A stretch of 34,944 nucleotides of DNA, taken from contig NZ_NXIB02000045.1 of assembly GCF_002412335.2 (NCBI RefSeq), forward strand, positions 1 through 34,944, given 5' to 3'. Below, in pieces: positions 3,624-33,979 of this stretch. Made by a program: the position numbers and the translations under genes. This stretch comes from Tychonema bourrellyi FEM_GT703 (GTDB taxonomy: Bacteria; Cyanobacteriota; Cyanobacteriia; Cyanobacteriales; Microcoleaceae). Position 1 is the first letter of the stretch, and every line of letters begins with the position of its first letter. Below the pieces are notes generated by a model. It had not been told where the DNA came from. It saw only the letters and a program-made list of their open reading frames with translations, and made no database searches.

Positions 3624-3664
3624 AATCTAAAATCTAAAATCTAAAATTTAAAATCTAAAATCCC

Positions 3665-6793: not shown

Positions 6794-7675
6794 CTACGGC
6801 GAAGTTCTCTCCGATCGCAAATTGCGGATCTCTTCGATACTCAGTCCCGTTGTTTGACTGATAGTTTCGTTATCGAGGCGATCGAGTAACTGTCGCGCCA
6901 CCGCCTGCATTGCTTCTTCTCGACCTTCTTCTCGACCTTCTTCTCGACCTTCTTCTCGACCTTCCCGATTGGCTTTGATTATAATTCCTTGTTGGTCGTA
7001 AATAAACAGTTCTTGCCGTTCGAGGGCTTCTAGTTCGCCAGGGTTTAAATTAACTTGGTTTGCTATGTCAAAGGCTTGATGAATCTCTGGCACAACATCC
7101 ATTGTTTGCGGTACTTGTGTCAGCATATTGGCATATTTCATGAAATAAATCCATTTATCGGTCAGGGTTTCTATTTGTGACAATTCTTTGGTAAATTTTG
7201 GGAGTTCGACGAATACTAACTCAATGTGATTGTCGAAATATTCAATATTTGTTGTTGTTTCTTTGTAGACAAACCGAGAAATTAGCCGATCGCTATTTTC
7301 AAACATCTCGAAATCTGTAATCGTTAGTGCGATTACAGGTTTCAACATTCGGTAGCCTTGTCCTTTCTGTAATTGAGATGCGTAAGTTTTGGCAGCGTTG
7401 TACAAAACTCTCTTGCCGAAAGACTCGACGTTTAATACCTGCATTTCAATAATAATCAGTGTTCCGTCGGTGAGTTGGGCTTTGACATCTAAAGAAGAGT
7501 CTTTTAAGCCTGCTATCTTGGGCGGTAAATTAGGATCGATAATTTCTAAGTCTGTAATGGTAGGATTTCCATCGTAAATTGTGGCGTTGAGAAAGCTGAT
7601 GAGAATGCCTTTGCTATCTTGGGAAGCAAAGATTTTTTTGAAGGCGTAATCGGTTTTGGGATTGATGAATGTCAT
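6794..7675 (-). CDS. Rpn family recombination-promoting nuclease / putative transposase
   Basis: This 293-residue protein of the PD-(D/E)XK Rpn/transposase family starts with the typical INPKTDYAFKKIFASQDSK. The catalytic core is visible as SSLDVKAQLTDGTLIIIEMQV (D and ExQ residues, about 58-78) and FGKRVLYNAAKTYASQL. Rpn proteins of E. coli are DNA endonucleases that promote RecA-independent recombination. The C-terminal part contains four REEG-type tetrapeptides coded by 12-bp tandem repeats (about 6910-6966), a length-variable hinge common in this family. The stop codon lies inside a dispersed repeat (CGACGCACCCTACGGC), a second copy of which sits 124 nt upstream of the start. The cellular role is unknown. 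Confidence 0.88.
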   Translation of the reverse strand: MTFINPKTDYAFKKIFASQDSKGILISFLNATIYDGNPTITDLEIIDPNLPPKIAGLKDSSLDVKAQLTDGTLIIIEMQVLNVESFGKRVLYNAAKTYASQLQKGQGYRMLKPVIALTITDFEMFENSDRLISRFVYKETTTNIEYFDNHIELVFVELPKFTKELSQIETLTDKWIYFMKYANMLTQVPQTMDVVPEIHQAFDIANQVNLNPGELEALERQELFIYDQQGIIIKANREGREEGREEGREEGREEAMQAVARQLLDRLDNETISQTTGLSIEEIRNLRSERTSP

Positions 7676-7809: not shown

Positions 7810-10659
7810 TTAGACAGATCCAATTCGACGCTCGATCGCATTATAGAACCGATCGCCCATATCAACCATCCCCACTTCAATCAACCCCAAATTATCGGCA
7901 CTCAACACCCGCAAAGGCGAATCAGCACCCCCAACTTGACCGATTTTCTGCCACATTTTCGCCAAATGTTCTTCCAGGTAAGCTTCCCAAATCTCTTGAT
8001 TTTCCGGTGCGACTGAAACTACAATACAATTGCCCATTTCACCAAACAGAATTTCATCCCAGCGGCTGATATTTGCCGAATTGAAACCGAGATGGATGTC
8101 TGCACCCAGTTTACCAGAAATACAGGATTCCGCGAGGGCGATCGCAATTCCACCCTCCGCAGAATCATGGGCCGAACAAACCCAACCACTGCGAATTCCA
8201 TCGCGACAAACCGCTTGCACTTTCCTTTCCAATTCAAAATTGATAGTTGGTGGTTTCCCCGCTACAATCCCGTGAATTGCCGCTAAATATTCCGAACCTC
8301 CCAAAGTAGGAGAAGTTTTAAGTTCTGAGTTTTGAGATGATTCCCCAATTCCCAACACATAAATTAGATCGCCTTTCTTCTGCCAACCTTGACCACAAAT
8401 TTTCGTTAAATCTGGAATTAATCCCACCATTCCGATTACCGGAGTTGGATAAATCGGTTGAGGATTACCATCAGAATCGATGGTTTCATTGTACAGCGAA
8501 ACATTCCCGCCAGTCACAGGTGTTTTCAACTCCCGACAAGCTTCAGCAATCCCGCGACAAGCTGATGCTAATTGCCAATATCCGATCGGCTTTTCGGGAC
8601 TGCCAAAATTCAGATTATCAGTAACTGCAATAGGTTCCGCACCCACACAACTTAAGTTTCTAGCTGCTTCGGCTACGACGGCTTTTGCACCTTCGTAAGG
8701 ATCGAGATAAACGTAGCGGGAATTGCAATCAACGGTGGCCGCAACTCCGGGAATAACCCCCCCCGGCCCCCCCTTGCTAAGGGGGGGAGAAAGTTCGGGA
8801 GTTTCTCTTCCTTGTGTCTTCTTAAATAAGGGAATAGCCTCTGCTTCCTCCTGTAGCCCCGAAGCTTGGGTGCGTTCTTCTCCCTCTTGAAGCCCCTCCT
8901 TACCAAGGGGGGGTTCTCCCTCTTGAAGCCCCCCCTTACCAAGGGAGGGTTCTCCCTCTTGAAGCCCCCCCTTACCAAGGGAGGGTTCTCCCTCTTGAAG
9001 CCCCCCCTTACCAAGGGAGGGTTCTCCCTCTTGAAGCCCCCCCTTACCAAGGGAGGGTTCTCCCTCTTGAAGCCCCCCCTTACCAAGGGAGGGTTCTCCC
9101 TCTTGAAGCCCCCCCTTACCAAGGGAGGGTTCTCCCTCTTGAAGCCCCCCCTTACCAAGGGAGGGTTCTCCCTCTTGAAGCCCCCCCTTACCAAGGGAGG
9201 GTTCTCCCTCTTGAAGCCCCCCCTTACCAAGGGGGGGTTGGGGGGGGTTTTCTTGACAAGGTTCCACAGGCCGCAATCGAACAACTGCCGCATCAGCACC
9301 ACCGGGCAAAACAACAGTATTATTCTGCACTTGATGGTCATATTGACGATAAACCCAGCGTTTAGAAGCGATGGTGGGAGTATCTAAAAGTTTGAGCAAA
9401 ATCTGGTTCCAACTTTGCAGATTGCCATCAATCTCGATGCCTGCAACTGTACATTCTGGTAGCGAATCTGCCGTCCATTCCCAAGCTTTTATAGCATATT
9501 CTGGCGGTTCTGTCAACAGTTCTCGGTGATAAATTGGCGTATTATCTGCCAACGCAGTCGCGGTAATTTCGGCGGCGATTTCGCCTTTAAAGAGAATTCG
9601 GACGATCGGCTCTTCAATCACTGTACCCGCGACTACGGCTTGCAATCCCCAGCGATGAAAAATATCAATTAATTCCTGTTCCCGTCCTTTCTCTGCCACA
9701 AATAACATCCGTTCCTGGGATTCTGAAAGCAGGTATTCGTAGGGAATCATGCCGCTTTCTCGCACGGGAACTTTGTCTAAATCAAACTCAATTCCGACTC
9801 CACCTTTGGCGGCCATTTCTGATGTCGAACAGGTGATGCCGGCTGCACCCATATCTTGCGCGGCGACGACAGCACCAGTTTTGAATGCTTCTAAACAAGC
9901 TTCAATTAAGGACTTTTCTAGAAATGGATCTCCTACTTGTACAGCAGGGCGATCGTCCATTGATTTGTCGGTCAATTCTGCACTGGCAAAACTGGCACCG
10001 CCCATGCCATCTCTGCCAGTGGTAGAACCGACGTAAAGCACGGGATTTCCGATGCCGGAAGCGCCGGATTTAACTATTTCTTGAGTTTCCATTAAACCCA
10101 AGGCCATGACATTAACTAATGGGTTCTCGGAATAAGCCGCATCGAAGTAAACTTCGCCGCCGACTGTGGGGACTCCAATGCAATTTCCGTAATGGGAAAT
10201 TCCCGATACTACTCCTTTGAATAACCTCTGAGTTTTGGCATCGTCTAGGTTTCCGAAGCGCAGGGAATTCAAAAGTGCGATCGGGCGTGCTCCCATTGTG
10301 AAGATATCGCGGAGAATTCCGCCGACTCCTGTTGCGGCACCTTGAAAAGGTTCGACGGCTGAAGGGTGATTGTGGGATTCGATTTTGAAGGCTAATTGCA
10401 ATCCGTTTCCCAAGTCTATAACGCCGGCATTTTCTCCGGGGCCGACGAGGATGCGATCGCCTTCTGTGGGAAACTGTTTTAATAGCGGCCGCGAATTTTT
10501 GTAACAGCAGTGTTCGCTCCACATGACTCCGAACATTCCCAATTCTGCTTTGTTGGGATGGCGGTTGAGACGGCGTACAATGTCTTCGTATTCTTCGGGT
10601 TTAATGCCTTCGGAGGCTATTTCTGCGGGGGAAAAGGGGGATTCGGAGATGACTGACAT
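7810..10659 (-). CDS. purL: Phosphoribosylformylglycinamidine synthase subunit PurL with repeat-encoded insertion
   Basis: This is the ATP-dependent synthetase subunit that converts FGAR to FGAM in purine synthesis, acting with PurQ and PurS, which are not in this window. The enzyme parts are complete: [10 protein letters not shown] with the active-site His50, the ATP/Mg segment [19 protein letters not shown], a second ATP-binding domain starting at [11 protein letters not shown], and [10 protein letters not shown]. At 949 residues it is about 170 longer than usual PurL (about 770-800). The excess is at about residues 467-640, between the two halves of the protein: ten copies of a 12-residue unit ([12 protein letters not shown]) and a further palindrome-derived segment ([15 protein letters not shown]). 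The frame stays open throughout, so the enzyme is probably made with a long flexible linker. purF lies downstream, beyond the accessory genes. Confidence 0.97.
8756..8787. repeat. Single C-run/G-run palindrome inside purL
   Basis: Seven C, TTGCTAA, seven G (8767-8787), preceded by a further C-rich run. It encodes [11 protein letters not shown] in PurL at about residues 624-635. It is a solitary copy of the same palindrome that is amplified at 8879-9238. Confidence 0.9.
8879..9238. repeat. 36-bp x 10 in-frame tandem array inside purL
   Basis: Ten head-to-tail units start at 8879, 8915, 8951 and so on every 36 bp to 9203. Inner units are essentially identical; the first and last have a G-run of seven instead of the GGGAGGG variant. 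Each unit holds CCCCCCCTTACCAAGGGAGG, a C-run/G-run palindrome, plus a TCTCCCTCTTGAAG spacer. The unit length is a multiple of three and it has no stop codon in at least two frames of the minus strand and one of the plus strand. It encodes 12 residues per unit in PurL. The near identity indicates recent expansion. Confidence 0.97.
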
Positions 10660-11044
10660 GGAAATTCGGTATAAACCACAGGCTTTATTTTAAATGGCTT
10701 TGGTTTTTTAATCTCAAATCTGGCACTATTGTCAATTTTGGGAGATTTTTTGTGGGGTGGGGGCGGGTTGATCTGAGATATTGTACTATTATCAGCAACA
10801 GGCAAGATGCCTGTTCCACAAATATCAGTTTTCTTGTGGTACTATTGTCGGCAACAGGCAAGATGCCTGTTCCACAAATATCAGTTTTCTTGTGGTACTA
10901 TTGTCGGCAACAGGCAAGATGCCTGTTCCACAAAATATCAGTTTTCTTGTGGAACAGGCATCTTGCCTGTTCATAGAATGCTTGTTGAGAATGGTATTAT
11001 TCTGTGAGTCAATATAAAATATAAAATCTAAAATATAAAATCGA
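10660..11044. other. Intergenic region upstream of purL
   Basis: This 385-bp divergent spacer between purL and the pentapeptide gene must contain purL's promoter. Most of it (10796-10975) is a 56-bp repeat array. The end (11015-11041) is ATAAAAT/ATCTAAA heptamers. No gene is seen. Confidence 0.65.
10796..10975. repeat. 56-bp x 3 array of the GGAACAGGCATCTTGCC family
   Basis: Copies start at 10796, 10852 and 10908 with an exact 56-bp period. Each contains CAACAGGCAAGATGCCTGTT and CCACAAATATCAG, then TTTTCTTGTGGTACTATTG. The last copy ends with the inverted form GTGGAACAGGCATCTTGCC, so the array as a whole closes as a large palindrome. The core is shared with 3572-3598 and 31610-31780. Confidence 0.93.
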
Positions 11045-11650: not shown

Positions 11651-11796
11651 GGAAGAAGAAAGTTCGGCAACGGATTTAACGGATGTTTGGAATAAAATTA
11701 ATCGTTTTGGGCGTTGAGAACTTTTCAAGTATCTTGGCGATTGCTATACTTTTAAAATCCAAAATCTAAAATCCAAAATCTAAAATCCAAAATCGA

Positions 11797-12915
11797 ATGA
11801 CTAAGTTTCCCCACGATCAATTTGCCAAAGAATACCTGCAAGAGTTATTATCGCCTCTCGGAGATGTAGAAACTAGCAAAGATGTCACTGCTGAAGTTAG
11901 AGAAATTGATGTTTGGTTTCAACCAACTTCTTTTGAGGGCGAATATGTCCAAAGTTTGGGTTTGTTGGGTAAAATGGCTGCGACGGCGGCGATAATTGAA
12001 CCGTTTCGCAATCCTGTGACTGCTGAAGGAATTTTTAGTTGTGTGGTAAAATTATTAAATAGTAGGGCAGAATTGGGACGGCGGGCTAATCGAGAAGACA
12101 GACGTTTGCAGGAAAGAGAATTACCGATGTTGTGGATTCTCACTCCTACTGCTTCGGAACTTTTATTAAACAGTTTGGGTTTTCGGATTCCTGAAGCGTC
12201 TGAGGGCTGGGGGAGGGGAGTTTATTTTTTATCGGAGGCTTGGAGAGTTGGCTTAATCGCTATTCACCAGCTACCGAAGACTCCAGAGACTATGTGGTTG
12301 CGGATGCTGGGTAGGGGCCGGGTGCAACAAGGGGCGATCGCAGAATTAACTGAATTTCCCATTGATCCTTCAATCCGAGCTAATGCGCTACAATTACTTT
12401 ATAACTTGCAGGCAAATTTGCAAGCGAACACACCAACTAATCCCGCAGGGGATGATGAGGATCAGGAGTTAGTTATGGCGATCTCACCCCTTTTTCAACA
12501 ACATTTACAAGAAGCACAACAACAAGGTATTGAACAAGGCATTGAACAAGGCATTGAACAAGGACAGCGGTTGATTTTGGAGAGTTTTTTACAGGTCAGG
12601 TTTGGGGAGTTAGACCCCATAAGTCTCACGTTTGTAGACCCGATATCGGCTCTACCTACTGCTGAGTTTACCATGCTGTTAGTTCAATTATCTATGCTGC
12701 CGATCGCACAAATCGATCGCCAACCAGTCCAAAATCTGCTAGCGGCAAGTGTTTTGAACAACCGTTTCAGTGAATCAGGACAAGCAGAACGTTCGGTTAC
12801 TCTCATCCCCAATTTGCTCGGCTTATCCCCAGAAAACTTATCATTACTGCTGTCGGAATTGCCTCAATTATCCCTGGAAAATCTGATAGCTAGATTACCA
12901 AATGGAGCGACTTAA
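11797..12915 (+). CDS. Hypothetical Rpn-like (PD-(D/E)XK-type) protein with IEQG repeats
   Basis: This 372-residue protein begins MTKFPHDQFAKEYLQELLSP, followed by VREIDVWFQP, a start shared by a cyanobacterial family related to Rpn/PD-(D/E)XK nucleases; the Glu-x-Asp pair near residues 35-38 could be part of the active site. About residues 244-255 carry IEQG tetrapeptide repeats from a 12-bp tandem repeat, analogous to REEG in the protein at 6794-7675. A Leu-rich C-terminal part (about 290-372) follows. A hairpin after the stop (12935-12963) probably ends the transcript. The family link is moderate; the function is unknown. Confidence 0.7.
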   Translation: MTKFPHDQFAKEYLQELLSPLGDVETSKDVTAEVREIDVWFQPTSFEGEYVQSLGLLGKMAATAAIIEPFRNPVTAEGIFSCVVKLLNSRAELGRRANREDRRLQERELPMLWILTPTASELLLNSLGFRIPEASEGWGRGVYFLSEAWRVGLIAIHQLPKTPETMWLRMLGRGRVQQGAIAELTEFPIDPSIRANALQLLYNLQANLQANTPTNPAGDDEDQELVMAISPLFQQHLQEAQQQGIEQGIEQGIEQGQRLILESFLQVRFGELDPISLTFVDPISALPTAEFTMLLVQLSMLPIAQIDRQPVQNLLAASVLNNRFSESGQAERSVTLIPNLLGLSPENLSLLLSELPQLSLENLIARLPNGAT

Positions 12916-15328: not shown

Positions 15329-15790
15329 ATGGCATATATACCGCTTAGAAAACCAGTCGAATTTCTAGGCTTGCATCCAAACAACTTAAGGAAGTACGCA
15401 GATGAAGGGCAGATTAAATCAATCAAAAATGGAGCAGGGCAACGCCTTTACGACGTTGACTCCTACCAAAAAGATGGAAGCATCGGCTCTGGACTTAACT
15501 TCAAAAGAAAAGGACTGCAAGCCTTACTGGTCAGATTTATGCGCCCAGATCAGCTCACGATTGTTGTTGCCTGTAGAGACAGATTATGTAGATTTGGATT
15601 TGAACTTTTCGAGTTTATGGCTCATCAAAACGGTGCAGAAATCGTGGTTCTCTCAAATCCTGTTCACTGCCCAGAATCCGAACTCACAGCAGATCTTCTT
15701 GCCATCTTTCATGTCTTATCTTGCCGAATGCACTCCCTGGGGAGCTACCGCCAGAAAATCAAAGAAGATCCGACTATTCCTAAACCCTGA
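15329..15790 (+). pseudogene. tnpA: IS607 TnpA serine recombinase lacking its catalytic segment
   Basis: Residues 1-46 are an intact MerR-like helix-turn-helix (AYIPLRKPVEFLGLHPNNLR, then GQRLYDVDSY). Residue 47 then jumps to SIGSGLNFKRKGLQALL, which normally follows the recombinase beta-strands. The missing part, roughly 45-60 residues of the usual 190-210, includes the YxRVS motif with the nucleophilic serine. The rest (DRLCRFGFELFEFM, ESELTADLLAIFHVLSCRMH) is present in frame. The deletion is in frame, so a 153-residue DNA-binding protein without strand-exchange activity could still be made. LTIVVACRDRL also differs from the usual LTVVVAYRDRL. Confidence 0.85.
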
Positions 15791-16859
15791 GCAAAAGGCA
15801 ATACTCAAACAATGGTTTGGAGTTAGTCGTTACGTCTACAACACAACTATCAAATACTTGCAGCAACCAGGCACTAAAGCCAATTGGATGTCAATTAAAA
15901 CGGAAATACTCAATGGGCTGCCTGATTGGGCAAAACCTGTACCGTTTCAAATTAAATCTATTGCCATTAAAGATGCTTGTGGTGCCGTCAAAAAAGCCAA
16001 AGCAGATTTCAAGAAAACTGGCAAGATTTGTAGCTGCAAGTTTCGCAGTCGAAAAGATACAAAACAGTCTCTTTATATTCCCAAGTCTGCTATTGGGACG
16101 AAAGGAATTTATCCGACAAAATTGGGTCAGTCAAAGCTGAAAGAGGCATTACCCAAAGGCTTCAGTGATGGACGATTGACCCTTGCCTATGGCGAGTATT
16201 ACATTGTTGTATCTGAAGAATTGCAACCACGTCAGACCGATAACCAAGGTCGCGTGGTTGCCTTAGACCCCGGTGTTAGAACGTTCATGACTTTCTTTTC
16301 TGAGTCATCCTATGGATGGCTTGGGAATGATTCTAATCTTTTGATCCAAAAGTTGTGTTTCAGGTTAGACAAGTTGATCTCAAGGATGAGTAAAACGAAT
16401 AGCCCGCAACGCAAAAGACTCAAGAAAGCAGCGGACAGATTAAAGTCTAAGATTCAACATCTTGTCAAAGAGTTGCATCACAAAACGGCTAAGTTTTTAG
16501 TTGATAATTTTGACGTGATATTAATTCCATCCTTTGAGTCTTCTCAGATGGTGAGCAAGTCACGTCGCAAGATTCGCTCTAAAACTGTTCGTCAAATGCT
16601 GACTCTGAGTCATTACCAGTTTAAAAAACATCTAGAGTGGAAGGCTTGGGAGCAAGGCAAAGTTGCTTTAACTTCTATCAACGAAGCTTACACTTCAAAG
16701 ACTGTTTCATGGACTGGAGAAGTCAAAAAGATTGGTGGTAGCAGAACGATCAAAGATTCTGATGGAAATCAGATGAACCGAGATCTAAATGGTGCTCGTG
16801 GGATCTTCCTTCGGGCATTGGTTGATACGCCTTGGTTGAAAAGCTGTTTAGCGATTTAA
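15711..16859 (+). CDS. tnpB: RNA-guided endonuclease TnpB (IS607-associated)
   Basis: The ATG at 15711 starts a 382-residue protein; the reading frame is open further upstream, but only from here does it match TnpB (KIRLFLNPEQKAILKQWFG). TnpB proteins are omega-RNA-guided DNA nucleases and ancestors of Cas12. RuvC residues are present: ALDPGVRTF (RuvC-I Asp), IPSFESSQM (RuvC-II Glu) and NRDLNGARGIF (RuvC-III Asp). The zinc-finger region between the last two reads TSKTVSWTGEVKKIGG and lacks the usual CxxC pairs. It overlaps tnpA by 80 nt. The nuclease could be active with its RNA, which would be encoded at its 3' end. Confidence 0.88.
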   Translation: MSYLAECTPWGATARKSKKIRLFLNPEQKAILKQWFGVSRYVYNTTIKYLQQPGTKANWMSIKTEILNGLPDWAKPVPFQIKSIAIKDACGAVKKAKADFKKTGKICSCKFRSRKDTKQSLYIPKSAIGTKGIYPTKLGQSKLKEALPKGFSDGRLTLAYGEYYIVVSEELQPRQTDNQGRVVALDPGVRTFMTFFSESSYGWLGNDSNLLIQKLCFRLDKLISRMSKTNSPQRKRLKKAADRLKSKIQHLVKELHHKTAKFLVDNFDVILIPSFESSQMVSKSRRKIRSKTVRQMLTLSHYQFKKHLEWKAWEQGKVALTSINEAYTSKTVSWTGEVKKIGGSRTIKDSDGNQMNRDLNGARGIFLRALVDTPWLKSCLAI

Positions 16860-22247: not shown

Positions 22248-22570
22248 AACCTCTCTTCAATAGTAGCTAGAATACGAAGCAGTACCCGTTCCGGTTCTAG
22301 ATAAATAAATGTTAGTATGATTACTTGATCTTGATTGCCGATCGTCACATCCCACGTAGCCGATCGAGGTTCCACCAGTTCGTGCCTGACTATTACAGTA
22401 TATTGTCCTGCTGCCAAGTCATCAAATCCCGCATCTGCCTCCATCAAGGCAACTGTCTCCTCGGCCAGTACCCGTCCGTCCCGATTCAGTAAAGTAATAA
22501 AGGCAATGCCATCAACTGAAGTCATGGCAATGTTATTTTGATTGCGTACCATCACAAAAATATCGGACAT
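22244..22570 (-). CDS. Hypothetical beta-rich protein, first gene of a coupled pair
   Basis: This 108-residue protein has alternating hydrophobic strands: IFVMVRNQNNIAMTSVDGIAF, then GFDDLAAGQYTVIVRHELVEP and TWDVTIGNQDQVIILTFIYL. The DLAAGQYTVIVRH part is like the end of carboxypeptidase-regulatory/prealbumin-like beta-sandwich domains, suggesting an Ig-like fold. It has no signal peptide, so it is probably cytosolic. It is coupled by a 4-nt overlap to the 76-residue gene. The function is unknown. Confidence 0.68.
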   Translation of the reverse strand: MSDIFVMVRNQNNIAMTSVDGIAFITLLNRDGRVLAEETVALMEADAGFDDLAAGQYTVIVRHELVEPRSATWDVTIGNQDQVIILTFIYLEPERVLLRILATIEERL

Positions 22571-22930
22571 TATTTAGTTATTGGTTATTGGTTATTTGTT
22601 ATTTGTTATTTGTAGGTTGGGTTGAGGTACGAAACCCAACTCTTCATTTTAATTAAGATGTTGGGTTACTGGTTACTTGTTATTTGTAGGTTGGGTTGAG
22701 GTACGAAACCCAACTCTTGATTTTAATTAAGATGTTGGGTTTCGCTATCGCTCAACCCAACCTACTTCATCTCCTTAAAAAACGCGATAACTTATCTAAC
22801 AATCCTAGTTATTGGTTATTTGTAGGTTGGGTTGAGGTACGAAACCCAACTCTTGATTTTAAATAAGATGTTGGGTTTCGCTATCGCTCAACCCAACCTA
22901 CTTCATTTCCTTAAAAAACGCGACAACTAT
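22571..22930. other. Intergenic region filled by TAGGTTGGGTTGAGG elements
   Basis: This 360-bp spacer lies between the glnA end and the hypothetical pair. Nearly all of it is three repeat copies joined by TTATTGGTTATTTG-type short repeats. It must also carry the promoter of the 22244-22570 gene. No gene is seen. Confidence 0.75.
22611..22901. repeat. Three copies of the TAGGTTGGGTTGAGG palindromic element
   Basis: Copies lie at 22611-22671 (right half lost), 22685-22765 and 22821-22901; the last two are 81 bp and nearly identical. Each begins TGTAGGTTGGGTTGAGG, has GAAACCCAAC and GTTGGGTTTCGC inside, and ends CTCAACCCAACCTAC. It is the same family as 1844-1937. Confidence 0.92.
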
Positions 22931-25553: not shown

Positions 25554-26711
25554 TTGGCTAAACAACGACTAGACACTTTATTGGTCAACCTAGATTTGTG
25601 CACTTCCAGACAACAAGCTCAAGCTTTGATTCGGACTGGAAAAGTTACAGTCAACCAACAGGTAGTTGACAAACCGGGTACTGAAATTGATATGGCGGCA
25701 AACATTCACATTAAAGAGCGATCGCGCTATGTTTCTAGAGGTGGCGAAAAATTGGCCAAAGCACTACAAGTTTTTGCCATTCCCGTTACAGATAGAATTT
25801 GTCTCGACGGTGGCATTTCCACAGGCGGTTTTACAGACTGTCTCTTGCAAGCCGGAGCAGCCAAAGTCTATGGCATAGATGTTGGCTACGGTCAAGCTGA
25901 TTGGGGCTTGAGGAATGATCCGAGGGTAATTTTGAAAGAACGCACCAATTTGCGGTATATGACGGCTGCTGAGCTTTATGGCGACTCACCCCCCCCAACC
26001 CCCCCTTGTCAAGGGGGGGAGCCAGATTCAGCAGCCCCAACCCCCCCTTGTCAAGGGGAGGAGCCAGATTCAGCAGCCCCAACCCCCCCTTGTCAAGGGG
26101 AGGAGCCAGATTCAGCAGCCCCAACCCCCCCTTGTCAAGGGGAGGAGCCAGATTCAGCAGCCCCAACCCCCCCTTGTCAAGGGGAGGAGCCAGATTCAGC
26201 AGCCCCAACCCCCCCTTGTCAAGGGGAGGAGCCAGATTCAGCAGCCCCAGCTCCCAAAGGGGGGGAGCCAGATTCAGCCCAGTCCCCTGCTTTGTCAATA
26301 GGAGTTTATGCAGATTTGGCGGTGGTAGATGTGTCATTTATTTCCCTGGATAAGATTTTACCGGCGCTGTGGGAGTTGTTGGCACCACCGCGAGAAGCTG
26401 TGTTGCTGGTAAAGCCACAGTTTGAGGTTGGGCGCGAGAGAGTCGGCAAAAAAGGCGTGGTGCGAGACTCAGCCACCCAAGCTGATGCGATTTTCCAGGT
26501 GTGGAAAGCTGCGAGAGCTTTGGGATGGGAGGAACGGGGTTTAACGTGGTCGCCTTTACTTGGCCCGGCTGGTAATATCGAGTATCTTTTATGGTTGGGA
26601 GGCGATCGCCAACAGCAGTCAGAACAAAATACTGTGGAAGAGAGTGTGATGAAAGAACGGATCGCAGAAGTCACACAGGCGGCTAAGCGGGAACTGATCG
26701 ATCGATTTTAG
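25554..26711 (+). CDS. tlyA: TlyA family rRNA 2'-O-methyltransferase with repeat-encoded insertion
   Basis: TlyA-type enzymes methylate cytidine 2'-OH in 16S/23S rRNA using SAM. The gene starts with TTG at 25554 (MAKQRLDTLLV); no ATG is available near the domain start. An S4 RNA-binding domain (about 1-60) is followed by an FtsJ-like methyltransferase domain with LDGGISTGGFTDCLLQ (a variant of the usual DVGxSTGGFTD), VYGIDVGYGQ, VVDVSFISLDKILPALW and LLVKPQFEVGR. At 385 residues it is about 115 longer than usual. The excess is about residues 148-240, six to seven copies of the unit PTPPCQGEEPDSAA placed in a surface loop between ELYGD and the YADLAVVDVSF strand. The core motifs are intact, so activity is likely. 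Confidence 0.95.
   Translation: MAKQRLDTLLVNLDLCTSRQQAQALIRTGKVTVNQQVVDKPGTEIDMAANIHIKERSRYVSRGGEKLAKALQVFAIPVTDRICLDGGISTGGFTDCLLQAGAAKVYGIDVGYGQADWGLRNDPRVILKERTNLRYMTAAELYGDSPPPTPPCQGGEPDSAAPTPPCQGEEPDSAAPTPPCQGEEPDSAAPTPPCQGEEPDSAAPTPPCQGEEPDSAAPTPPCQGEEPDSAAPAPKGGEPDSAQSPALSIGVYADLAVVDVSFISLDKILPALWELLAPPREAVLLVKPQFEVGRERVGKKGVVRDSATQADAIFQVWKAARALGWEERGLTWSPLLGPAGNIEYLLWLGGDRQQQSEQNTVEESVMKERIAEVTQAAKRELIDRF
25997..26275. repeat. 42-bp tandem array (about 6.5 units) inside tlyA
   Basis: Units start at 25997, 26039, 26081, 26123, 26165 and 26207; a shortened, diverged unit follows to about 26275. Each has AACCCCCCCTTGTCAAGGGG, the C-run/G-run palindrome, plus AGGAGCCAGATTCAGCAGCC as spacer. 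The period is a multiple of three with no stops in frame. Middle copies are identical, so the expansion is recent. Confidence 0.96.
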
Positions 26712-27501: not shown

Positions 27502-27716
27502 GTTCGGCAACGGATTCTGTAACGGATTTAACGGATGTAAGGAAGTTCGGCAACGGATTCTGTAACGGATTTAACGGATGTAAGGAAGTTCGGCAACGGA
27601 TTCTGTAACGGATTTAACGGATGTAAGGAAGTTCGGCAACGGATTCTGTAACGGATTTAACGGATGTAAGGAAGTTCGGCAACGGATTCTGTAACGGATT
27701 TAACGGATGTAAGGAA
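27502..27716. repeat. 43-bp x 5 tandem array of the GTTCGGCAACGGATTC family
   Basis: Units start at 27502, 27545, 27588, 27631 and 27674 with an exact 43-bp period and essentially no divergence. Each reads GTTCGGCAACGGATTCTGTA, then ACGGATTTAACGGATGTAAG. Solo copies lie at 11661-11685 and 29181-29217. It sits between the stops of two convergent genes. Confidence 0.97.
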
Positions 27717-27724
27717 GGCAATTT

Positions 27725-31599: not shown

Positions 31600-31609
31600 G
31601 GACTTTTTG

Positions 31610-31780
31610 CAACAGGCAAGATGCCTGTTCCACAATTACTCAATTCTCTTGTGGGGTGGGCATCTTGCCCGCTCTTTGCAACAGGCAAGATGCCTGTTCC
31701 ACAATTAATTAATCCTGTGGTGGGGTGGGCATCTTGCCCCTCTTTGCAACAGGCAAGATGCCTGTTCCACAATTAATCAA
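31610..31780. repeat. 68/69-bp x 3 array of the GGAACAGGCATCTTGCC family
   Basis: Copies start at 31610, 31679 and 31747. Each has CAACAGGCAAGATGCCTGTT and CCACAATTA, then GTGGGGTGGGCATCTTGCCC. It is the same core as at 10796-10975 but with a different spacer. It lies between the convergent stops of the helical protein gene and ygfZ. Confidence 0.92.
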
Positions 31781-31793
31781 TGCTTTGACATCA

Positions 31794-32864
31794 TTATAAA
31801 CTTAAAAAAGGCAGATTTACCACTTCTCCAGCAATTTCTCCCACTTGTACTTTCAATCCTTCACCTCCTGCTTTTGTGCGGATATAAGCAAGACCGAAAA
31901 ATCCTGATTCGGTTTCAGTTGCACTGGTAAGTTTGCCGACTTTTTCCTCTCCGATTGTCACCACAGTACCTGGTGCAACATACCCGCTTAATTGCACGCC
32001 CCAAAGTTGCTGTTTGACTCCTTTGTAGGTGTTCAATCGAGCAATTGTTTCTTGACCAATGTAGCAACCTTTATCATAGGTAATTGTGTGTAAAAGTCTT
32101 GCTTCTAGGGGATTGTAGTCATCTGTAAGTTCAAAATCTGCTGCGGGGCGACCTTGTTCTATTCGCAATTGTTCCCAAATGCGATCGCCCATTGGTACAG
32201 CCCCAGCTTTGACTAATTCATGCCACAAGCTAGCTGCATCGCTGGCTGACGCAATTAAGGTGTATCCAGGAGATGCTAAACCGCTACCAACCGCAACTCG
32301 AACCCCCCCTTCATCCCCCCCTTGGTAAGGGGGGGGTTTTATCAATTTGTGAGTAGCATAGGGTTGATTTTCGAGTTCGCTAACTCCGATTTGTGCGAGT
32401 AATTTACTGCTTTCTGGGCCGAGGAGACTGAAAGCAACAGTTGTATCGGTTAAGTCTGTTAATTCTACCCGATCCATTGGGAAAATATAGCGATCGAGCA
32501 ATTCGAGTAATTGTCGGCGGCGGTTGGGGGAAACTAGCAGCAGTACAGCATCTTCTGTAGCATAGGCGGTGGCGAGATCGATCGTGCGCGCGGTGGATGT
32601 CACGAAAACGGTGTCGCAACCTTGACCTGGTTGGAGTTTGTTGATATTATTGGTAGTCTGATTGTGCAAAAACCGTAGGCGATCGCTATCAGTGATTTGA
32701 ATGCGTCCCCAGTGAGTGCGATCGCACAAAGCTACACCCTGTTTAGTCGCAGTAATCGCGGCTGGATCATTCCCAAAACTAACTGCGACAGTTTCTCCGG
32801 TTGTCAACTCGGTAAAGATAGCATTGGAGGATGTTTGAATATCGTGCAATTCTTGAATCATCAT
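31794..32864 (-). CDS. ygfZ: Folate-binding YgfZ/GcvT-like protein
   Basis: YgfZ (IBA57-like) proteins support iron-sulfur cluster enzymes in a tetrahydrofolate-dependent way. The 356-residue protein has the signature KGCYIGQET (conserved Cys) and the GcvT fold: VALCDRTHWGRIQITDSDRL near the start, RLEFLHNQTT-like RLRFLHNQTTNNI, GDRIWEQLRIEQGRP, DYNPLEARLLHTITYDKGC. A segment KPPPYQGGDEGG (about residues 175-188) is coded by a C-run/G-run palindrome not expected in the family; the frame is kept. Two consecutive ATG codons at the start are possible. Confidence 0.93.
   Translation of the reverse strand: MMIQELHDIQTSSNAIFTELTTGETVAVSFGNDPAAITATKQGVALCDRTHWGRIQITDSDRLRFLHNQTTNNINKLQPGQGCDTVFVTSTARTIDLATAYATEDAVLLLVSPNRRRQLLELLDRYIFPMDRVELTDLTDTTVAFSLLGPESSKLLAQIGVSELENQPYATHKLIKPPPYQGGDEGGVRVAVGSGLASPGYTLIASASDAASLWHELVKAGAVPMGDRIWEQLRIEQGRPAADFELTDDYNPLEARLLHTITYDKGCYIGQETIARLNTYKGVKQQLWGVQLSGYVAPGTVVTIGEEKVGKLTSATETESGFFGLAYIRTKAGGEGLKVQVGEIAGEVVNLPFLSL
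32301..32340. repeat. Single C-run/G-run palindrome inside ygfZ
   Basis: AACCCCCCCTTCATCC followed by CCCCCTTGGTAAGGGGGGGG. It encodes PPPYQGGDEGG in ygfZ and uses the same core as the arrays in purL and tlyA. Confidence 0.93.
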
Positions 32865-33283
32865 ATTTTGTTCACTGTTGATAGTTGACTGTTGACTGTT
32901 CTCTGTTGACGGTGACTGTTATCTGCTACGAATAAGCTGTGGAGCTTTAAACCACTAACGCGGCCTGTAGGGTGCGTCAGCTCGATCGCTTCCACCGACT
33001 AGGGAAACGCTGCGGGCTGACGCACCCTACAATACTAATAAGCTGTGGAGCATTTAAACCACTAACGCTGCCTGTAGGGTGCGTCAGCTCGATCGCTTCC
33101 ACCGACTAGGGAAACGCTGCGGGCTGACGCACCCTACAATACTAATAAGCTGTGGAGCATTTAAACCACTAACGCTGCCTGTAGGGTGCGTCAGCTCGAT
33201 CGCTTCCACCGACTAGGGAAACGCTGCGGGCTGACGCACCCTACAATACTAATAACGAATAACCAATAACGAATAACCAATAA
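32865..33283. other. Intergenic region dominated by a 107-bp array
   Basis: Upstream of ygfZ lie short GTTGACTGTT/CTGTTGAC repeats (32873-32925), related to those at 18479-18512. The 107-bp array (32931-33252) follows, then ACGAATAACCAATA repeats up to the 33284 gene end. No gene is seen; the ygfZ promoter must be close to 32870-32930. Confidence 0.7.
32931..33252. repeat. About 107-bp x 3 array with internal GTAGGGTGCGTC hairpins
   Basis: Units start at 32931, 33037 and 33144 (106 and 107 bp apart). Each has AATAAGCTGTGGAGC, CACTAACGC, then GTAGGGTGCGTCAGC, a HIP1-like CGATCGC spacer, and GCTGACGCACCCTAC, so every unit folds as a 15-bp hairpin. The three copies are nearly identical. Confidence 0.96.
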
Positions 33284-33764: not shown

Positions 33765-33979
33765 GGAGACGGCAATGCCCATAGGTGTCAACTTAAGCTT
33801 GAAACCCTTGGTATCTCTTGCTTTTACCTAAGTCTAGATCCCCCTAAATCCCCCTTAAGAAGGGGGACTTTGAAAAGACTCCTGTCCCCCCCTTCTTAAG
33901 GGGGGCTAGGGGGGATCTAGATTTAATAGTCAAACAGCAGTCTGTGACAGGGTTTGACGTTAAGTTGACACCAATGGGC
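33765..33979. mobile_element. MITE-like palindromic element A with a C-run/G-run interior
   Basis: The left arm 33765-33797 starts GGAGACGGCAATGCCC and ends GGTGTCAACTTAAG. The right arm 33961-33979 is TAAGTTGACACCAATGGGC. The interior contains a long inverted repeat, AGATCCCCCTAAATCCCCCT at about 33826 and its counterpart ending at about 33918, with CCCCCCTTCTTAAGGGGGG. It is non-coding. Confidence 0.85.

Follow-up and report, generated by a model that had tools for sequence, protein, structure and literature searches.

A tandem array of palindromes within purL of Tychonema bourrellyi as the probable expansion of a dispersed, nearly frame-neutral element

We analysed a stretch of 34,944 nucleotides from the cyanobacterium Tychonema bourrellyi FEM_GT703 (contig NZ_NXIB02000045.1, positions 1 to 34,944), here called the window, whose positions supply all coordinates given below. 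The window belongs to a 5.08-Mb draft genome of 271 contigs, referred to as G000; other genomes, loci and contigs carry our G, L and C numbers. The gene at issue is purL, which contains a tandem array of short palindromes between the coding sequences for the two halves of its protein. Related palindromes occur in two further genes of the window, tlyA and a ygfZ-like gene, and between genes (Table 1).

Table 1. Palindromic elements of the window and the genes that carry them
Feature	Position	Strand	Details
purL (phosphoribosylformylglycinamidine synthase II), host gene	7810..10659	-	open frame, 949 aa; PDB 3viu, E 2.7e-192
PurL linker between the two halves	8743..9270	-	176 codons, from RLR to VAATVDC
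Array of ten 36-bp units in purL	8878..9239	-	core palindrome plus 15-bp spacer (LQEGE)
First unit in coding sense with outer C8 arm	9217..9249	-	potential third strand of an intrastrand triplex, 9 triads
Eleventh palindrome with outer arm on its other side	8755..8787	-	9 triads
tlyA (rRNA methyltransferase family), second array-bearing gene	25554..26711	+	
Six 42-bp units in tlyA	25989..26249	+	outer C8 arm 25989-25996
ygfZ-like gene with single element	31794..32864	-	
Single in-frame ygfZ element	32303..32336	-	C7-TTCAT-C7TTGGTAAG8 on the + strand
Intergenic pair element, sub-type a	33837..33917	.	two palindromes 38 bp apart, GATC ends, AAG/CTT loops

The PurL frame contains no internal stop, and both PurL halves and all of the palindromes are read in it. 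In the Thermus PurL structure 3viu the two stretches matched stand two residues apart, which places the array between the PurL halves; the other listed matches of G000 to PurL fall on repeat stretches. Tandem Repeats Finder describes the tabulated interval as 10.1 copies of 36 bp with 99% matches, and a repeat search located ten cores at 36-bp steps (8892-9237). These results agree with the original prediction, made from the sequence, of ten in-frame units and a further palindrome nearby, which we locate at 8766-8787, outside the array and 126 bp from the next core. The in-frame palindrome array in purL is confirmed as real, with a copy number of ten that rests on a draft assembly. The prediction had also credited the array with adding about 170 residues. 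However, the array makes up about 120 of the 176 linker residues, and palindrome-free linkers of 60 residues are found in G001 and G009, so the array is not the source of all 170. A predicted PurL structure had a mean pLDDT of 38.4, too low for use.

The core of the palindrome, the 17-mer CCCCCTTNNNAAGGGGG, has 431 exact copies in G000 against none for a reversed-pattern control, which excludes chance. It ranges from 0 to 429 copies in 58 other genomes and is present in 51 of the 59, the reversed control being zero in all but one of them. In its full form the element is about 43 bp long (C7-8, a short bulge, C7TTNNNAAG7, a short bulge, G7-8); it is dispersed and resembles the repetitive extragenic palindromes (REPs). 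We told three sub-types apart by their ends. Sub-type a is a palindrome pair with GATC ends, and sub-type b is a CCCTCCCCTT stem with one outer arm. All remaining copies, most of them C7TTNNNAAG7 stems that carry one outer C/G arm or two, form sub-type c, to which the purL array belongs. Both tlyA and the ygfZ-like gene carry sub-type c, in line with the shared core proposed for them. The intergenic element at 33.85 kb, for which the same core had been claimed, has a related layout but is of sub-type a.

We drew an unbiased 1.16-Mb sample of G000 by contig number (contigs 1-60 and 14 of contigs 200-214, each read over its first 20 kb) and called genes with a simple codon-phase Markov gene finder. 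Clusters lay inside genes in 0 of 30 cases for sub-type a, 1 of 12 for b (in a short and doubtful frame) and 12 of 18 for c. One of the last, L142, was taken as a chance match, two of which are expected from the control, and was dropped from the sub-type c clusters and from the count of codon phases in 17 genes given below. The purL sub-type is thus found in genes in 11 of 17 clusters, against 1 of 42 for the other two combined, which lie outside genes in 41 (Fisher p 4.7e-7). Relative to the coding fraction of the sample, 0.789, sub-type c behaves much as if it landed at random (p 0.15), whereas a and b avoid genes (p 7e-27).

In G000 the carriers include purL, tlyA, ygfZ, leuS, glyS, murE and genes for a CusA/CzcA-type RND pump, an FAD oxidoreductase, a DsbH-domain protein, kinase-like proteins, the TIGR03279 radical SAM protein, an oligopeptidase B relative, a pentapeptide-repeat protein and NB-ARC proteins. 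Two more, hisC and a further kinase-like frame (L224, recognized by eye), were met in loci fetched for other reasons. In the kinase-like genes L224 and L204 the element stands, as judged by eye, just ahead of the DFG motif.

In these many unrelated genes the element is in frame and occurs in all three codon phases (7, 6 and 4 of 17 genes). Its C and G runs encode proline and glycine whatever the frame, and a stop is possible in at most one of the three frames per strand, through the 3-nt loop, with 28 of the 64 possible loops giving none; the element is therefore nearly frame-neutral. Loops that end in T, and so create TAA in one phase, were seen in none of seven cases in the sensitive phase compared with seven of ten in the others (p 0.01), which we read as a trace of selection that keeps the frame open. 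In the eight in-gene arrays of G000 the main period is 33, 36 or 42 bp. Core spacings of up to 60 bp are divisible by 3 in 48 of 49 instances within genes versus 3 of 25 outside, although they are not independent, the 49 coming from those eight arrays and 22 of the 25 being the 38-bp steps of the pair design.

Such linkers could have arisen gene by gene through simple slippage of low-complexity Pro/Gly sequence, with no dispersed element involved; the spacers do vary from gene to gene, and the arrays resemble ordinary minisatellites. Against this, unrelated genes and intergenic copies share one core with its outer arms, where the control finds nothing, and we regard slippage as an extremely improbable account. 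The shared core and arms oppose it as the origin, and slippage stays a part of the expansion step.

The arrays are widespread in the genus. At least three cores in tandem occur in 19 of 29 genomes, G000 included, and we read one locus from each of the 19. Long frames hold ten of these loci, including thrB, chlD, ureC, proS and cobN. The other nine are not in such frames, and most of them repeat in steps of 38 bp or close to it, so that arrays are not confined to genes. This distribution bears on the possibility that repeats were misassembled into a ten-unit array in a draft of 271 contigs. Contigs C4, C21 and C43 do start within or beside palindromes, the purL array of G022 contains Ns, and a contig of G026 ends in the purL array. 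However, the units differ at both ends, some of the array loci lie on contigs longer than 100 kb, and single in-frame elements are present in the single-contig genome G020 (ygfZ) and in the six-contig G011 (TIGR03279 gene). We therefore consider an artefact very unlikely.

Comparison with relatives shows that the PurL linker is far from a fixed non-repeat sequence shared by all: its lengths and contents both differ. In the 20 other congeners readable by script it measures 60-107 residues, compared with 176 in G000; left out were G022 for its Ns, G026 because a contig ends there, and G014, in which the linker is out of frame. The commonest length, 19 residues, was found in 21 of 69 loci, 69 of 80 being readable with congeners included. 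Among named records, the PurL closest to that of G000 by best-segment identity is from Tychonema sp. BBK16 (97%), with Microcoleus records close behind. Array length varies among related species, each represented by one genome. PurL linkers of other cyanobacteria hold heptamer repeats and other palindromes, and that of Iningainema tapete contains an element of the same design as the palindrome of purL in G000. Two linkers of the genus, L010 (purL of G014) and L124 (leuS of G027), are frameshifted as assembled, by sequencing error or by real slippage in the C/G runs.

Several other fixed linker sites vary among relatives: some genomes lack the element, and others have a single copy, a decayed copy or an expanded array. 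In tlyA, 18 of 27 genomes have an empty junction of 9 nt and nine have 30-324 nt, seven of these with the core; the longer allele of G004 holds another repeat family, and that of G006 (30 nt), tallied as longer by length, is palindrome-free (G021 and G024 were unreadable at this site). The ygfZ site measures 21 nt in 16 of 27 genomes, as in the outgroups G051, G054 and G055, and 36-51 nt in 11, two of which (G001 and G007) are decayed. In the TIGR03279 gene 15 of 25 genomes have 42-57 nt and ten have 120-369 nt, G026 with eight cores. The leuS linker spans 48-174 nt in 27 genomes read, always a multiple of 3 except in G027 (49 nt). The minimum numbers of state changes on a quick tree of the 27 genomes are 6 for tlyA, 8 for ygfZ and 6 for the TIGR03279 gene; on the tree of each gene's own flanks they are 5, 9 and 6.

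Other repeat families also occupy these linkers. Repeats of the GGGCGGGCACGGGGGCACCGCCC type, with variants, occur in the leuS, tlyA and purL linkers of several congeners, and a GGCATCTTGCC-type repeat in the leuS linker of G011. In the linkers of L006, L009, L117, L118, L120, L126, L309 and L319, this second G/C-rich palindrome (GGGCGGGCACGGGGGCACCGCCC or a variant) replaces the loop or one arm of the first with the frame kept, a case of nested or swapped elements.

Retention of the element in frame in housekeeping enzymes would also be expected if Pro/Gly-rich linkers had been recruited for a protein function, for example as spacers or binding tags. We find this very improbable: the sites are patchy, copies have decayed, and unrelated repeat families occupy them in other species.

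The layout of the element provides a candidate cause for its expansion. We scored potential third strands after Holder et al. 2015 (PMC4666352), as a mirror strand within 1-6 nt of the stem, and found them in 57 of 59 copies of sub-type a, 13 of 14 of b and 5 of 8 of c outside genes, against 12-24% per copy in a flank-swap control. The element thus has the geometry of a class II intrastrand triplex motif, with a stem of at least 6, loops of 1-6 nt and a third strand that mirrors the purine arm. At least one copy with a third strand is present in 17 of 18 host genes, the exception being the chance match L142. Within arrays the third strands stand mostly at the ends. Those of murE, glyS, the FAD oxidoreductase gene and the DsbH-domain gene have them in the first and last units and lack them in the inner ones; in purL they stand at the unit that is read first and at the separate eleventh palindrome beyond the opposite end of the array; the arrays of L049 and tlyA have one at a single end; and in the array of the RND gene every unit scores 7 or more. 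This distribution suggests, as the simplest reading, that an array is a two-armed element expanded from within. A triplex may form and cause the expansion.

Taken together, the observations make it probable that the purL array arose through internal expansion of one copy of a dispersed, REP-like, triplex-capable and nearly frame-neutral palindrome that reaches protein linkers and expands there by multiples of 3 bp. The element would reach a linker either as a fresh insertion or with an allele received from another lineage, and selection would retain frame-neutral copies only. A hairpin or triplex could then stall replication, and slippage would duplicate core and spacer inside the element, with units that are not multiples of 3 being lost from genes. 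The resulting Pro/Gly linker would be translated, and its place at a domain boundary or in a variable loop would explain why it is tolerated. We infer the movement, the mechanism of expansion and the translation of the linker from sequence comparison.

Several observations weigh against this reading. With respect to the frame, the purL linker is out of frame as assembled in G014 and, after a run of Ns, in G022; leuS is frameshifted once, in G027; and in G020, the sole single-contig genome with an array locus read, the array lies outside long frames. With respect to structure, a third strand is present in only 28 of 68 in-gene copies of sub-type c, and single units show hairpins but fold no better than shuffles (z 0.27, -1.15 and -0.16). 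Some filled alleles lack this core (tlyA in G004 and G006, ygfZ in G001 and G007, the TIGR03279 gene in G006). With respect to movement, no clean target-site duplication was seen, the ygfZ element being a replacement of about five codons (FAGIE) of the empty allele and not a simple insertion. G000 does encode a REP-associated tyrosine transposase (RAYT; L226, 209.6 bits to the NF047646 equivalog, curated cut-off 80), but its 1.5-kb flanks are without the palindrome except within a neighbouring gene, and RAYT and palindrome counts are uncorrelated across the 59 genomes (rho 0.19, p 0.15). Finally, the nearest neighbour by flank sequence has the same state in 27 of 27 genomes for tlyA, 19 of 25 for the TIGR03279 gene and 14 of 27 for ygfZ, and the tlyA figure means that descent or allele exchange may explain much of the pattern.

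The last point favours an account without present mobility, in which short homologous recombination passes old insertions from lineage to lineage, and the copies grow or decay where they stand. The filled ygfZ alleles of distant lineages look like one allele, those of G002, G020 and G024 encoding the same peptide, and the ygfZ elements of G007 and G016 differ despite 99.7% identity over 150 + 150 nt of flank. Flank sharing and the alikeness of these alleles make allele exchange and repeated insertion equally likely. On the other side, the same type of element occurs in unrelated genes, and one of the same design stands in the Iningainema PurL linker, which indicates spread within genomes at some time. 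We put the probability of this account only a little short of even.

The RAYT could instead indicate REPINs proper (REP doublets forming hairpins), elements that a RAYT mobilizes in trans, on the model put forward for Pseudomonas. The score of the G000 RAYT fits such a system, as does the layout of sub-type a, two inverted palindromes that fold together: the one copy folded (33838-33920) forms a single hairpin from the inverted doublet (z -4.28). The palindrome-poor RAYT flanks speak against it, as do the genomes in which the two part company, G042 having 69 palindromes and G046 having 22 with no RAYT match in either, and G043 having seven RAYT matches and no palindromes. Nor are the REP tags enriched: GTAG is found within 25 nt of 6 of 66 clusters and CGTC of 11 of 66, for control fractions of 0.227 and 0.157. 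Movement as REPINs therefore appears unlikely. A role for the RAYT as mover is unsupported by adjacency and by the 59-genome correlation. Small dispersed repeats (SDRs) of cyanobacteria reportedly nest within one another, a likeness to the nested or swapped palindromes of the linkers, and SDR5 is said to lie within HIP1 sites. Insertion into the HIP1 octamer, the SDR5 trait, was found in 0 of 66 clusters (control 0.021), and neither the tag nor the octamer tests place the element among the GTAG/CGTC REPs or the SDR5/HIP1 repeats. The proposal that a mobile palindrome enters essential genes at tolerant linkers thus holds for dispersal and for in-frame linker copies in housekeeping genes; its support does not extend to self-movement, to which no transposase could be tied.

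The window contains further repeats and a set of transposon-like frames. Intergenic tandem arrays of another palindrome, GGCAAGATGCC/GGCATCTTGCC, lie at 10783-10952 (56 bp x3) and 31606-31781 (69 bp x2.6), and the core of this palindrome is also present in leuS of G011 and in the PurL linkers of L238, L252 and L269. A perfect 43-bp repeat is present five times between genes at 27502-27717, and a 107-bp repeat three times, with 98% matches, outside called genes at 32927-33255. Heptameric tandem repeats at 1-112, 3624-3662, 11754-11794 and 22570-22613 are presumably the short tandemly repeated type of cyanobacteria. In-frame 12-bp repeats in two genes, at 6913-6964 and 12521-12563 (GREE and QGIE units), are in-frame repeats of another kind. 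Serine-recombinase-like and TnpB-like frames overlap at 15329-16859, and we take them to be of the IS607 type.

The Rickettsia cases raised the question of how small palindromic repeats enter coding sequence and survive there, and it has stayed open since. The occurrence of empty, single, decayed and expanded states within one genus, for leuS, purL, tlyA, ygfZ and the radical SAM gene, makes gain, loss and expansion orderable and testable, and gives an example from nature of the way in which very short repeats may make proteins longer and leave them intact. The layout of the element also points to DNA structure as a possible cause of in-frame minisatellites within essential genes. For annotators and assemblers it is a warning that such linkers may be real yet hard to assemble. 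More speculatively, and in our view doubtfully, the triplex-capable, frame-neutral palindrome might be a natural linker-inserting element that targets a small set of fixed linker positions in essential enzymes, can leave and re-enter them, and amplifies from within. If so, core metabolic enzymes would carry reversible, length-variable Pro/Gly spacers.

In the literature searched, which many subscription papers fall outside, we saw no sign of a description of this expansion for Microcoleus or Tychonema. The Rickettsia palindromic elements (RPEs) are dispersed palindromes that stand in frame in open reading frames likely to encode functional proteins, according to the account in PMC3733652. Like them, the present element has in-frame copies in conserved genes that relatives possess without it; unlike the RPE cases described in that account, it has a ten-unit tandem expansion. 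The comparison with RPEs made in the original prediction is therefore apt as an analogy, the likeness being one of behaviour and not drawn from a comparison of sequences. As outlined in the same source, REPs can also lie in open reading frames, including those of tRNA synthetases and repair genes, where clusters encode 43 to 82 residues. The element shares with these the presence of palindromes within open reading frames, and differs from the GTAG/CGTC REPs, most of which are described there as intergenic, in its genic sub-type c clusters and in lacking the tag.

Compared with the REPIN/RAYT system as presented in PMC3116915, G000 has the inverted palindrome pairs (in sub-type a), the tandem clusters and a RAYT, but its palindromes are not beside the RAYT and stand singly in genes. 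With SDRs, very small dispersed repeats of filamentous cyanobacteria (Elhai 2008 as cited in PMC4390886), it shares its tiny size, dispersal and type of host, and it differs from SDR5 in not being inserted into HIP1. PARCELs (palindromic amphipathic repeat coding elements), to judge from the outline in PMC2996958, are likewise palindromic DNA that codes for tandem protein repeats, whereas the repeats reported here are Pro/Gly linkers of housekeeping enzymes. Triplex motifs, as characterized in PMC4666352, consist of a hairpin and a third strand, are rich in G/C, include the class II geometry, occur in many copies, and are abundant in some cyanobacteria, where they are linked with genome instability. 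The element matches them in anatomy, composition, class II geometry and copy number; the E. coli motif is given in that paper as always intergenic, whereas the present element stands in frame in genes and is tandemly expanded. Thus, the element works like RPEs and intragenic REPs and has the anatomy of triplex motifs, and its expansion, its triplex layout and its turnover at the same sites set it apart as a variant.
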